NCBI GenBank assembly: GCA_003220225.1
Contig: QHRU01000068.1
Coordinates: forward strand, 1-64,000
Origin: Candidatus Rokuibacteriota bacterium
Lineage (GTDB): Bacteria > Methylomirabilota > Methylomirabilia > Rokubacteriales > CSP1-6
Direction: 5' to 3'
Length of the DNA: 64,000 nt
The position numbers and the translations under genes were made by a program. The notes below the pieces were generated by a model. That model ran no database searches and was not told the DNA's origin. It saw only the letters and a list, made by a program, of their open reading frames with translations. Below, piece after piece: positions 8,731-46,421 of the stretch; position 1 is the stretch's first letter, and each line of letters starts with the position of its first letter.

Positions 8731-10146
8731 TCAGTGCCGCTGCTTGCGCGCCACGCCCGTCTTGATCGCCGCCGCGGCGACCGCCTCCGCCACCGTCGGC
8801 ACGACGCGGGCGTCGAACATCGACGGCGTGATGTATTCGTCGCTCAGCTCGCCCTTGGCCACGATCGAGGCGAGCGCGTGGGCCGCCGCCAGCTTCATCT
8901 CGTCGTTCACCCGCTTGGCGCGGACGTCGAGCATCCCGCGGAAGAAGCCCGGGAAGCAGCACGAGTTGTTGATCTGGTTCGGGTAATCCGAGCGGCCGGT
9001 GGCCATGACCCGCACGAACGCTCCCGCCTCCTCCGGCTGGATCTCCGGCACGGGGTTGGCCATGGCGAACACGATCGGATCGCGGTTCATCGCCTTGATG
9101 TCCTTGAGCGAGACGACGCCCGGGCCCGACAGGCCGATGAAGACGTCGGCGCGCACGAGCGCGTCGCCCGCGGTGCCGCGCAAGGCCTTGGGATTGGTGT
9201 GCCGGGCGAACCACTCCTTCATCGGGTTCATGTTCTCCTTGCGGCCCTTGTAGATCGCGCCCGCGCGGTCACAGCCCACGATGTTCTTCGCCCCCTCCTT
9301 CATGAGGAGCTTGGCCGTCGCGATGCCCGAGGCCCCCGCGCCGGTGATCACGATGCGCGCGTCACCCAGGCGCTTCTTGACGATCTTCAGCGCGTTGATC
9401 AGCGCGGCCAGCACCACCACCGCCGTGCCGTGCTGGTCGTCATGGAACACGGGGATGTCGAGGGCCTTCTGCAGGCGCTCCTCGATCTCGAAGCAGCGTG
9501 GGGCCGAGATGTCTTCCAGGTTGATGCCACCGAAGACCGGCGAGATCGCCTTGACGATGGTCACGATCTCGTCGACGTCCTTGGTGGCCAGGCAGAGCGG
9601 CCACGCGTCGACGCCCGCGAACTCCTTGAAGATGAGGGCCTTGCCCTCCATGACGGGCGCGGCGCCGTTCGGTCCGATGTCGCCGAGGCCGAGCACGGCC
9701 GTGCCGTCGCTGACCACGGCCACCGTGTTCTGCTTCGTCGTCAGCGTGTAGGCCTTGTCGGGATCGTGGTGGATGGCCATGCACACGCGCGCCACGCCCG
9801 GCGTGTACGCCATCGAGAGATCGTCGCGCGTCTTGACCGGGATCTTGCCCTTGATCTCGATCTTGCCGCCGAGGTGCATGAGGAACGTGCGGTCCGAGAC
9901 GTGAACGACCTTGACCCCGTCGATCGCCTTGAGCCGCTCGACCACCTGCTGTCCGTGCGGCTCGTCGCTGGCCTTGAAGGTCAGGTCGCGAACGATCGTC
10001 TTCTTGCGGACCTCCACCAGGTCGATCGCGCCGATGTCGCCGCCGGCCTTGCCGATGGCGGAGGTGACCTTGCCGAGCATGCCGGGCTGGTTCTGGATCT
10101 CGAGCCTGACCGTGAGCGAGTGACTCGCCGTCGGAGCGTTGCCCAT
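8731..10146 (-). CDS. Malic enzyme with N-terminal ACT domain
   Basis: Oxidative decarboxylation of malate to pyruvate with NAD(P)+. Residues 1-85 form an ACT domain (LTVRLEIQNQPGMLGKVTSAI), a likely allosteric amino-acid sensor. The catalytic part follows with SMAYTPGVARVC, VSDGTAVLGLGDIGP, the metal-binding FHDDQHGTAVV and the dinucleotide fold VITGAGASGIA. At 471 residues it lacks the C-terminal phosphotransacetylase-like domain of MaeB. GGGAGG lies ten bases before the ATG. Pairing with a carboxylate transporter and acetyl-CoA synthetase suggests growth on C2/C4 acids. Confidence 0.93.
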   Translation of the reverse strand: MGNAPTASHSLTVRLEIQNQPGMLGKVTSAIGKAGGDIGAIDLVEVRKKTIVRDLTFKASDEPHGQQVVERLKAIDGVKVVHVSDRTFLMHLGGKIEIKGKIPVKTRDDLSMAYTPGVARVCMAIHHDPDKAYTLTTKQNTVAVVSDGTAVLGLGDIGPNGAAPVMEGKALIFKEFAGVDAWPLCLATKDVDEIVTIVKAISPVFGGINLEDISAPRCFEIEERLQKALDIPVFHDDQHGTAVVVLAALINALKIVKKRLGDARIVITGAGASGIATAKLLMKEGAKNIVGCDRAGAIYKGRKENMNPMKEWFARHTNPKALRGTAGDALVRADVFIGLSGPGVVSLKDIKAMNRDPIVFAMANPVPEIQPEEAGAFVRVMATGRSDYPNQINNSCCFPGFFRGMLDVRAKRVNDEMKLAAAHALASIVAKGELSDEYITPSMFDARVVPTVAEAVAAAAIKTGVARKQRH

Positions 10147-31280: not shown

Positions 31281-31997
31281 TCAGCGATGGACGGTGCGGC
31301 GGGCGGGCGTCCGGCGATACGCGCAATCGCGCATCCAGCAGCGCGCGCACTGGCTGAAGTAGTGATCCACGCGCGCGCGCGCGCCGGCGCCGACGAGCAG
31401 CGAGATCGACTTGCCCGGCGTCATGAAGCACGCCGCGTTCAGCGTCACGCCCACCGGCGAGCCGGGACACAGCCGGAACAGCGTGTGCTGCTCGGCGACA
31501 TCCCAGTCCGCGTAGCCGGGGCTGATGCGGTTCGTCACGGCGAGCCCCGCCGCGAGGCCCTGCTGGCAGAGGACGTCGTTCAGGTACTCGGCCAGGCTCT
31601 CGACCGCGCCCGAGCCGACGCTGTCGAGCATCGAGGCCAGCGGCAGCTCGCGCGACTCCCAGAGCGCGGCCACGCGCCGCTCGAGCGCATCGCCGATCGT
31701 GACCACCGCGGCCGCGACGTATTCGACCTCGCCCCAGCGCTCGCCCGCCAGCGGAATCGTCAGCACCTCACCGCCGGCCTCGAGCGTGTCGGGGCCGCGC
31801 GCCTCCACCGGCAGCCAGCGGACGACGGCGCGCGGGAGCATGAGCCGCGTGCCCTCCGCGAGCGCGTCGTCGAAGAGCGCGCGGACGTCCGGCGTGGGCG
31901 CGTCGACGCCCTTCTTGTAGCCCTGGAAGCGGAGGACCTCGTCGGGATCGATGGCGAGCGGCAGGTCGGCGAGGACCTGGACGCCGAGGGGCAGCAC
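31281..31997 (-). CDS. Methionine-synthase activation-domain-like protein
   Basis: A stand-alone protein of about 238 residues that resembles the reactivation (AdoMet-binding) domain of MetH: the key block TNRISPGYADWD corresponds to the RxxPGYxxxP motif that binds AdoMet, and an upstream ALWESRELPLASML helix fits the domain. It adds a C-terminal cysteine set, CARCWMRDCAYRR, not found in MetH, that could bind a metal or cluster. It would reduce and remethylate an inactive Co(II) corrinoid on the neighbouring corrinoid protein. The GTG at 31997 is my choice; the frame stays open upstream through a 48-bp duplication. Confidence 0.78.
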   Translation of the reverse strand: MLPLGVQVLADLPLAIDPDEVLRFQGYKKGVDAPTPDVRALFDDALAEGTRLMLPRAVVRWLPVEARGPDTLEAGGEVLTIPLAGERWGEVEYVAAAVVTIGDALERRVAALWESRELPLASMLDSVGSGAVESLAEYLNDVLCQQGLAAGLAVTNRISPGYADWDVAEQHTLFRLCPGSPVGVTLNAACFMTPGKSISLLVGAGARARVDHYFSQCARCWMRDCAYRRTPARRTVHR

Positions 31998-44085: not shown

Positions 44086-44631
44086 TCAGCGCGGGAGGAT
44101 GCAGAAGCCCTGGCTCTCGATGCCGAGCGCGACGTTGAACTTGCTGCGGAAGTTCTCGAGGGCGGCGGCCGCGGTCAGCTCGACCACCTGCGCTTCCGAG
44201 AAGTGGCGGCGGGCCTCCGCGAACAGCTCGTCGGTGACCTTCTGGCCCGTGATCGTCATGGCTTCCGCGAAAGCGAGCGCCGCGCGCTCCGGCGCCGAGT
44301 AGTGGCGGCTCGTCGCGAACGAGGCGACCTCGCGGATCTTGTCCTCCGACGCGCCCTCCCGCAGACCGCGGGATGAGTTGATGTCGACTCAGAACGGGCA
44401 GCCGTTGATGAGCGAGACGCGGAGATAGACGAGCGCGAGCAATTCCTTGCCGAGCAGCCCCGAGCGGTCCACGGCCGCCGACAGCGCCTTGGCGGCCCGC
44501 ATGACGCCCGGCGTGTGAGCCTGGACCTTCGTGGTGTTGAAGACGGCGCCGAAGGTCGCCTCCTCCTTCGCGAACGTCTCCTTCAGAATCGGATCATCGC
44601 CGGGATCGGTGATCTCGCGGACTCGAGGCAC
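44086..44631 (-). CDS. AhpD-like/carboxymuconolactone decarboxylase-family protein, probable selenoprotein (CxxU)
   Basis: Conceptually 181 residues from a GTG at 44631. The CMD/AhpD core has the redox motif as LINGCPF-UGA-VDINSSRG, where homologues have GCPFC: the UGA codon at 44391-44389 is residue 81. After it the frame stays open for 100 codons and keeps the family sequence (GASEDKIREVASF, SAPERAALAFAEAMT, ARRHFSEAQVVELT, LGIESQG). A hairpin that fits a bacterial SECIS lies 21 nt after the UGA. I therefore read the codon as selenocysteine, giving a CPFU peroxidase-type site; a nonsense mutation is the alternative. It follows the M28 peptidase gene by 21 bp. Confidence 0.72.
44357..44373 (-). 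promoter_or_regulatory. Candidate bacterial SECIS hairpin
   Basis: On the transcript a six-pair stem UCCCGC/GCGGGA closes a five-base loop GGUCU. The loop starts 21 nt after the in-frame UGA, and its first base is G. As I recall the bSECIS model (UGA-to-loop 16-37 nt, upper stem 4-16 bp, G in the first two loop bases), all three conditions are met. The stem lies inside the coding sequence, where bacterial SECIS elements must be. Confidence 0.65.
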
Positions 44632-44652
44632 GGCGCGATTATACCTCTGTCA

Positions 44653-45570
44653 TCAGCGTGTCCCCGCAGCCTGGGTGGTCAGATATTGCTCGATCGAGGG
44701 CAGTGCGTCGAGCAGCACGTTGCCGACGACGGCCAGGCTCTGCGCGGAGACCTTGTCGAGCGTGTCGTCGGCCGTGTGCCACGGTGGATAGTCGAAGTCG
44801 ATCAGCAACGCGGCGGGCACGCCCGCCTTCAGGAACGGCACGTGGTCGTCCTCCACCGGCAGCGGGTCGTTCAGGAAGTGCCTGGAGTAACCGAGCCGCG
44901 CCGCGCTCGCCCAGAGGATGTCGGTCAGCCATAGCGTGGAGTACGTGTCGCGACGGATGTTGAGGTCGCGGTCGCCGATCATGTCCACCAGCACCAGCGC
45001 GCGCGGCAACCGGCCCGTGCGCGCGAGCTCGGCCGCGAGGTGCCGGGAGCCGTACAGACTGTCGGTGGCCGTCCACGACTCGAACGCCTCCTCGCCGTCG
45101 AACCACACCAGCCACAGCGTGTACTCGCGCGGCGCCTTCGCCAGCCGGCGCGCCAGCTCGATGAGCAGCGCCGCGCTGGAACCGCCGTCGTTGGCGCCCA
45201 CGAAGCGGAACGACTTGAAGAGCTTGGTGTCGTAGTGGCCGGCGAGCACGACGACGTCAGTGCGACGTCCCGGCAGGCGTGCCACGACGTTGGCCATGCG
45301 CAGGCGTCCCTGCGGCGTGGCGGCCTCGAACGTCCGCACCTCGGCCTCGACGCCGGCCTTCCGGAGCTCGCCGACGATGTAGGTGCGCGCTCGCTCGCCG
45401 CCGGGTGAGCCGGCCACGCGCGGCCCGATGGCCACCAGCCGTTCGACGTGACGGAGCGCGGCGGCGCCGTCCACCCGGACGGCCGGCGCCTGGGCGGCGC
45501 CCGGCTGCGCGCCGCCGGCGAGCACCGTGAGGACCAGCGTCAGCGCGAGCGTCGTCACGCGGGCGCTCAT
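44653..45570 (-). CDS. Secreted M28-family metallopeptidase / glutaminyl-cyclase-like
   Basis: A 305-residue zinc hydrolase with a signal peptide (TLALTLVLTVLAGGAQPGAAQA). Metal-binding and catalytic positions of clan MH are seen: the first His/Asp in VVLAGHYDTK, the bridging Asp in VGANDGGSSAALLIELA, the Glu pair in VWFDGEEAFESW, Asp in LVLVDMIGD and the late His in YPPWHTADDTLDKV. The short length without a PA domain and the FDGEEA and PPWHT blocks favour the glutaminyl-peptide cyclotransferase-like subfamily over aminopeptidases. The AhpD-like gene follows by 21 bp. Confidence 0.88.
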   Translation of the reverse strand: MSARVTTLALTLVLTVLAGGAQPGAAQAPAVRVDGAAALRHVERLVAIGPRVAGSPGGERARTYIVGELRKAGVEAEVRTFEAATPQGRLRMANVVARLPGRRTDVVVLAGHYDTKLFKSFRFVGANDGGSSAALLIELARRLAKAPREYTLWLVWFDGEEAFESWTATDSLYGSRHLAAELARTGRLPRALVLVDMIGDRDLNIRRDTYSTLWLTDILWASAARLGYSRHFLNDPLPVEDDHVPFLKAGVPAALLIDFDYPPWHTADDTLDKVSAQSLAVVGNVLLDALPSIEQYLTTQAAGTR

Positions 45571-45587: not shown

Positions 45588-46421
45588 CTATCGCCGTCCC
45601 GGCGCCGGCTTGACGCCGGCGGCGCCGAAGTACTGCATGGTCAGCACGAAGTTGCCCTCGGCGCGCAGCGCGTTGAACCCGTCGAGCCAGCGCTCGGCGG
45701 TCGGCGCGTCCACGATGCCGAAGCGCACGGCGTTCTCGGCGCGCCGCCCCAGGAAGTTGCGCGAGAACTGGGTCAGCGTCGTGTCCTGGTAGACGTCGGC
45801 GATCATCTTGACGTCGGCCAGTCCCGACGCGCGCAGCAGCGCGCCCAGCCGGCGACCGCTGTGCGGCTCCGCGTAGATGCGCGCGGCGACGCCGTCGAAG
45901 ATCTTCGCGGTGAGCTCGCGGTCCGGATGCGTGGCGCCGATCAACCCGAAGTCCTGGTCTTGCAGCCCAACGCGGCCCCCGGGACGCGTGACGCGGGTCA
46001 TCTCCTTCACCACGCGCAACGGATCCTCGACGTGCAGGATCACGGTGATCGCCAGCGCCACGTCGAAGCGGCCATCCCCGAACGGCAGTCGGCTTCCGTC
46101 CGCGCGTCGAAACACGATGCGGCCGCCCGGCGCGCCGCGCGACAACGAGCGCGCCCGCGCGAGGAGGGTCGCGCTCGTGTCCACTGCGCTCACGCGGCCG
46201 CGGCGGCCGACGAGGGCGGCGAGATCGCGCACGACGACGCCGGTGCCGCAGCCGACCTCCAGCACGCGGTCGCCCGCGCCCACGGGCACCCAGCGCAGGA
46301 AGCGGCGGCGGAGACGGATCTGGCTCGGCGTGCGGCCGCGCACCTCGAGCGCCGCGGCCATCGTCTCGGCCGTCGGCTGGGCGTCGACGGCGCGCCAGGG
46401 ATCAGGATAGAGGCTAGCCAA
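45588..46421 (-). CDS. Class I SAM-dependent methyltransferase
   Basis: A 277-residue methyltransferase. Motif I is VLEVGCGTGVVVRDLA, motif II acid in VSAVDTSATLLARAR, post-I FRRADGSRLPFGDGRFDVALAITV and motif IV VKEMTRVTRPGGRVGLQDQD. This resembles UbiE/arsenite methyltransferase-like enzymes acting on small molecules; the substrate cannot be told. The TTG start overlaps the stop of the upstream TRASH-domain gene by eight bases, and a later ATG (MAAALEVRG) is an alternative. Confidence 0.85.
   Translation of the reverse strand: MASLYPDPWRAVDAQPTAETMAAALEVRGRTPSQIRLRRRFLRWVPVGAGDRVLEVGCGTGVVVRDLAALVGRRGRVSAVDTSATLLARARSLSRGAPGGRIVFRRADGSRLPFGDGRFDVALAITVILHVEDPLRVVKEMTRVTRPGGRVGLQDQDFGLIGATHPDRELTAKIFDGVAARIYAEPHSGRRLGALLRASGLADVKMIADVYQDTTLTQFSRNFLGRRAENAVRFGIVDAPTAERWLDGFNALRAEGNFVLTMQYFGAAGVKPAPGRR

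Follow-up and report, generated by a model that had tools for sequence, protein, structure and literature searches.

An in-frame UGA predicted to encode selenocysteine in a CMD/AhpD-family gene of a Rokubacteria genome

A gene of the CMD/AhpD family, located on the minus strand of a 64,000-nucleotide stretch of Rokubacteria DNA (hereafter called the window), contains a single in-frame TGA, and the question raised by this locus is whether that codon ends the protein, is read as selenocysteine (Sec), or has been given another meaning in this organism. The coding sequence (44631..44086, minus strand) runs from a GTG start at 44631 to a TGA stop at 44088..44086 and yields 181 residues including Sec81, an assignment based on the translation, the PF02627 match and the orthologues. 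The in-frame TGA (44391..44389, minus strand) is codon 81, and translation and orthologues place Sec at the second position of a CxxU motif in the context LINGCPF-U-VDINSS. An earlier note on this DNA had located the UGA at the second redox-cysteine position, without naming the strand, and had described the frame as staying open for 100 codons of family-typical sequence. Both observations hold: exactly 100 open codons follow the UGA, and the PF02627 CMD match (residues 41-124, E = 8.4e-15; 55 bits for the coding sequence against a Pfam gathering score of 23) spans the site. GC content by codon position was of the coding type on either side of the UGA, at 0.66/0.45/0.89 upstream and 0.65/0.48/0.95 downstream. 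When the entire window was scanned blind for TGAs that might be read through, with coding-type GC3 required both before and after the TGA, three sites came out and this UGA ranked first, which argues against a chance occurrence. The two other sites were set aside, as the one at 31283 resembles a pair of adjacent genes fused across a stop and the one at 9902 is a read-through candidate without a hairpin.

Translation Table 11 reads TGA as a stop, and a nonsense mutation or a sequencing error, leaving an 80-residue fragment or a pseudogene, would be one account of the locus. The orthologues, however, rule out a plain stop or pseudogene for practical purposes. The TGA at codon 81 was invariant in 21 aligned orthologues, and on 32 named contigs from four phyla the site was U in 32 out of 32 and Cys in none. 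The closest of these contigs belonged to Candidatus Rokubacteria (Methylomirabilota). A search of the phylum gave matches in 44 of 95 genomes, and each match that covered the site carried one TGA. Full-length orthologues with the TGA were found in about 43 Rokubacteria genomes and, elsewhere, on single contigs from Nitrospinae, Tectomicrobia and an Arabian Sea alphaproteobacterium. No Cys-form orthologue was present among the full-length orthologues from the 95 genomes and the named-contig scan, through which Cys orthologues outside Methylomirabilota were sought. The only stop-free match in the phylum search (L041, G025:C52) has the stretch around the Sec site deleted; about 50 residues including the site are missing and the frame is shifted, by either gene decay or assembly error. 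Orthology is supported by conserved gene order, since most Rokubacteria share the arrangement NUDIX, methyltransferase, M28 peptidase, CMD. In the window an M28-type peptidase ORF (44653..45570) lies directly upstream of the CMD gene, with a SAM methyltransferase ORF (45588..46421) beyond it, both on the minus strand and both assigned to a family by inspection.

The earlier note had also argued that a random nonsense mutation would not be expected at this position, a view that agrees with the top rank in the blind scan and with the TGA in every orthologue covering the site, and it had proposed that selection after the UGA be measured. Against a same-genus relative, dN/dS was 0.17 before the UGA and 0.21 after it. 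The median over 210 pairs was 0.235 before and 0.33 after, although pairwise values are rough at the divergence of these orthologues. Judged from these ratios, which are well below 1, the sequence downstream of the UGA is under purifying selection. A true stop is also at odds with the CMD domain that crosses the site, with the conservation of rare codons in the SECIS element described below, and with the complete Sec machinery of the genome, and we consider it extremely improbable, even though the hairpin is statistically weak in this single gene.

The soil/groundwater genome that carries the window (6.03 Mb in 167 contigs, 97% complete) contains all four of the genes selA, selB, selC and selD that had been proposed as a check. 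The tRNA-Sec (selC) is canonical, with anticodon TCA, and scored 69.7 bits over the Rfam cut-off. The selB gene (372 bits) lies on the same contig as the tRNA-Sec and is adjoined by selA. The selD gene (335 bits; L126, G000:C159:12780-13730) itself has an in-frame TGA and is predicted to encode a selenoprotein as well, with the motif SCAGUASK. One in-frame TGA in several genes might also be expected if this organism had reassigned or suppressed UGA, reading it for instance as Trp. TGA nevertheless terminates many ORFs normally, the CMD gene included, and the in-frame TGAs occur where homologues carry a redox Cys and never Trp. A reassigned code was rejected on the basis of the tRNA-Sec with its TCA anticodon and of TGA as a normal terminator, and we give it next to no chance. 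On the comparative evidence, the in-frame UGA almost certainly encodes selenocysteine, and the locus is very probably a real selenoprotein gene, with a UGA that is translated and maintained by selection.

Bacterial SECIS elements are hairpins directly 3' of the UGA, with a loop about 16-37 nt away and a G in the first two loop bases. The hairpin UCCCGC-GGUCU-GCGGGA (44373..44357, minus strand) has a loop that starts 21 nt after the UGA and begins with GG. The six-pair stem, GGUCU loop and 21-nt spacing that had been described were therefore recovered at this position, but the significance attributed to them in the single sequence was not. The hairpin of the CMD gene alone is unremarkable, as 24% of synonymous recodings equal it and the 60-nt fold gave z = -0.37, and on these grounds single-sequence significance was dropped as the main evidence. 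For a 33-nt stretch with the hairpin at its centre, chosen after the hairpin had been seen, the fold reached z = -2.0.

Support for the element comes from the relatives, most of which have the hairpin GCAUCC-CGUG-GGAUGC with its loop 18 nt after the UGA. Across divergent representatives the stem is spelled by codons that are otherwise rare in the gene. Among 19 representatives less than 80% identical, and with the rest of the gene as background, the stem codons were GCA in 15 of 17 (background 4.5%), TCC in 19 of 19 (13.5%) and GGG in 18 of 19 (27%), and the SECIS codon CGT was found in 11 of 19 (5%). Compensatory stem pairs were seen as U-A/C-G, in which a silent Asn base is linked to a Gln/Arg change, and as G-C/U-A. 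The stem covariation score was reached by three out of 500 shuffles, which were uncorrected for relatedness. Examination of this region for a bacterial SECIS, as had been advised, thus gave a conserved position, codon-level selection and compensatory change among relatives, and the sequence evidence, weak in one gene, is decisive when taken across them. In the genus of the window the SECIS has been shifted by 3 nt and rebuilt, with SSRGL in place of ASRGM (ASRGMQ to SSRGLR). Nine other CMD genes of the same genome have a Sec codon, and in eight of them a correctly spaced hairpin reaches about -10 kcal/mol or better. By the strict rule there is no hairpin in the ninth (C1:17329); GGC-C-CUC-GGUCA-GAG-A-GCC, with one mismatch, is visible there by eye. 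In the proposed mechanism, SelB loaded with Sec-tRNA-Sec would bind the hairpin that closely follows the UGA and insert selenocysteine at residue 81.

The start of the gene has a further conserved feature. A TATAAT -10 box (44638..44643, minus strand) lies 6 nt before the start codon, from which a leaderless transcript is predicted. Of 44 orthologues, 26 have a TATAAT-like box that precedes the start codon by 5-6 nt, in nearly all cases by 6, and 12 others have a Shine-Dalgarno sequence in its place. The conserved box suggests a leaderless selenoprotein mRNA, and a switch in the mode of initiation is predicted among the orthologues. Among the literature matches listed, none stood out as dealing with leaderless mRNAs for bacterial selenoproteins.

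Structural prediction with AlphaFold2 gave an all-helical model with a mean confidence (pLDDT) of 92.8 and a confident CMD fold. Sec81 is near a helix start in this model, three residues after Cys78 (codon 44398..44400, minus strand), so that the prediction shows both the all-helical fold of the CMD/AhpD superfamily and a redox motif placed where a helix begins. The best PDB matches overall were PA0269, Atu0492 and the debrominase Bmp8, with PA0269 at the top (1.6 A over 138 columns). PA0269 (2O4D/2IJC) and Atu0492 (2GMY), at about 30% identity, share the fold, with a TM to target of 0.85-0.89, and the position of the CxxC/CxxU motif; they are, however, Cys enzymes, and the CMD selenoprotein has extra N-terminal helices. 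The CxxC/CxxU motif of AhpD-type alkylhydroperoxidases is represented by CPFU. The proton relay of PA0269 and Mycobacterium tuberculosis AhpD consists of Glu, Cys, His/Tyr, Cys and His (PMC3141380). The relay Glu at -12 is absent among the orthologues, which have Ala, Pro, Ser, Asn or Asp, and the relay His at +4 from the second Cys position is replaced by an invariant Asn (Asn85; codon 44377..44379, minus strand). Where PA0269 has Glu36 and His55, the CMD selenoprotein has Ala/Pro and Asn. Because these two residues are missing, alkylhydroperoxidase activity is not to be assumed, and peroxidase activity is uncertain. The description 'AhpD-like' in the earlier note consequently stands for the fold and the motif and fails for the relay.

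Sec81 would most likely act as the nucleophile, attacking a substrate that is either a peroxide or some other oxidised or electrophilic compound. Cys78, the predicted resolving cysteine of CPFU, may then resolve the intermediate as a selenenylsulphide, which a thiol donor would reduce. The protein might instead be a selenoprotein with a reaction other than that of a peroxidase, such as Bmp8-like reductive dehalogenation or thiol-disulphide exchange. Besides the residues found at -12 and +4, this is suggested by the full-length homology to Bmp8 (6OHI; residues 10-170, 2.7e-15), which has its CxxC in the same place and also lacks both relay residues (Trp and Phe, from reading the alignment). Bmp8 differs in being a Cys enzyme, shows about 27% identity when the structures are aligned, and was solved in complex with tribromopyrrole. 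A selenol requires less help to ionise, and loss of the relay is for that reason also compatible with a peroxidase; moreover, PA0269-like AhpD proteins score better by both sequence and fold, and no halogen-related neighbour was seen. A non-peroxidase reaction is accordingly possible but on the unlikely side. Whichever substrate is used, we hold with high confidence that the gene product is a thiol/selenol redox enzyme of the CMD/AhpD superfamily, its chemistry, substrate and reductant being predicted.

The genome has 19 PF02627 matches, nine of them with a TGA, and a tenth Sec gene (C148) came from a protein search, so that the count is at least ten (G000 contigs C128, C162, C57, C51, C1, C148, C97, C108, C28 and C96). 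Nine are CxxU and one is NxxU. No CxxC-type CMD was found among the PF02627 matches of the genome, the remaining matches lacking the motif altogether. Cys forms of CMD are present in its relatives. A superfamily tree, with several long branches and an arbitrary root, requires at least five Cys/Sec changes, and the subfamily of the CMD gene was all Sec. Some other Sec paralogues retain both relay residues (NGCEYUTRAH), and paralogues of the PYUMDIR type (SPYUMDIRHAVG; L153, L156, L157, L160, L163, L167, also L044 and L045) have lost the first Cys of CxxU and kept Sec. From the comparison of these two motifs with CPFU, Sec appears to be the residue that persists, within these Sec proteins, where the relay or the first Cys has been lost, and the group without the first Cys points to Sec as the key residue. 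A paralogue in a same-genus genome (L042, G002:C518) reads GCPCSMD where its relative has GCPFUMD, and has apparently lost Sec and acquired a Cys at the preceding position. It is conceivable, though rather doubtful, that Sec displaced Cys in the redox-active CMD proteins of this lineage and that the AhpD relay was lost in the subfamily because the selenol ionises unaided, opening the way to a non-peroxide reaction.

CxxU selenoproteins named AhpD-like 1 (COG2128) and AhpD-like 2 (pfam02627) were listed in 2008 from the Global Ocean Sampling set, and the pfam02627 CxxU selenoproteins were commoner in non-marine samples (PMC2398784). A 2026 review lists a CMD-like PF02627 CxxU family and names as the reported record holder a Methylomirabilota MAG, for which 63 selenoproteins had been predicted (PMC13188914). 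The CMD gene resembles all of these in belonging to the CMD superfamily with Sec second in CxxU, but AhpD-like 1 and 2 were named from marine or metagenomic reads and are likened to it by description and not by sequence. The best NCBIfam match was NF053654, YciW-related (seleno)protein (GroundWater_YciW; residues 10-175, E = 5.1e-42), which NCBI itself marks as a (seleno)protein; at 143.6 bits the CMD gene falls short of its cut-off of 310 for equivalog membership. Since CxxU selenoproteins of the CMD/AhpD type have been described and Methylomirabilota are reported to be selenoprotein-rich, the CMD selenoprotein belongs to an already known kind, and the suggestion that a soil-type, GC-rich genome would extend the range carries little weight. 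More unusual are the set of at least ten CMD genes with Sec and none of the CxxC type in the genome, and the conserved -10 box 6 nt before the start.

The CMD selenoprotein, which an ordinary gene caller would truncate at residue 80, is confirmed as such by analysis of the raw sequence. With ten or more CMD genes that contain Sec and none of the CxxC type, this one Rokubacteria genome has an unusually large set. With Cys or Sec, with or without the proton relay, and with or without the resolving Cys, the CMD family forms a natural series in which to study the advantage that selenium gives to an enzyme.
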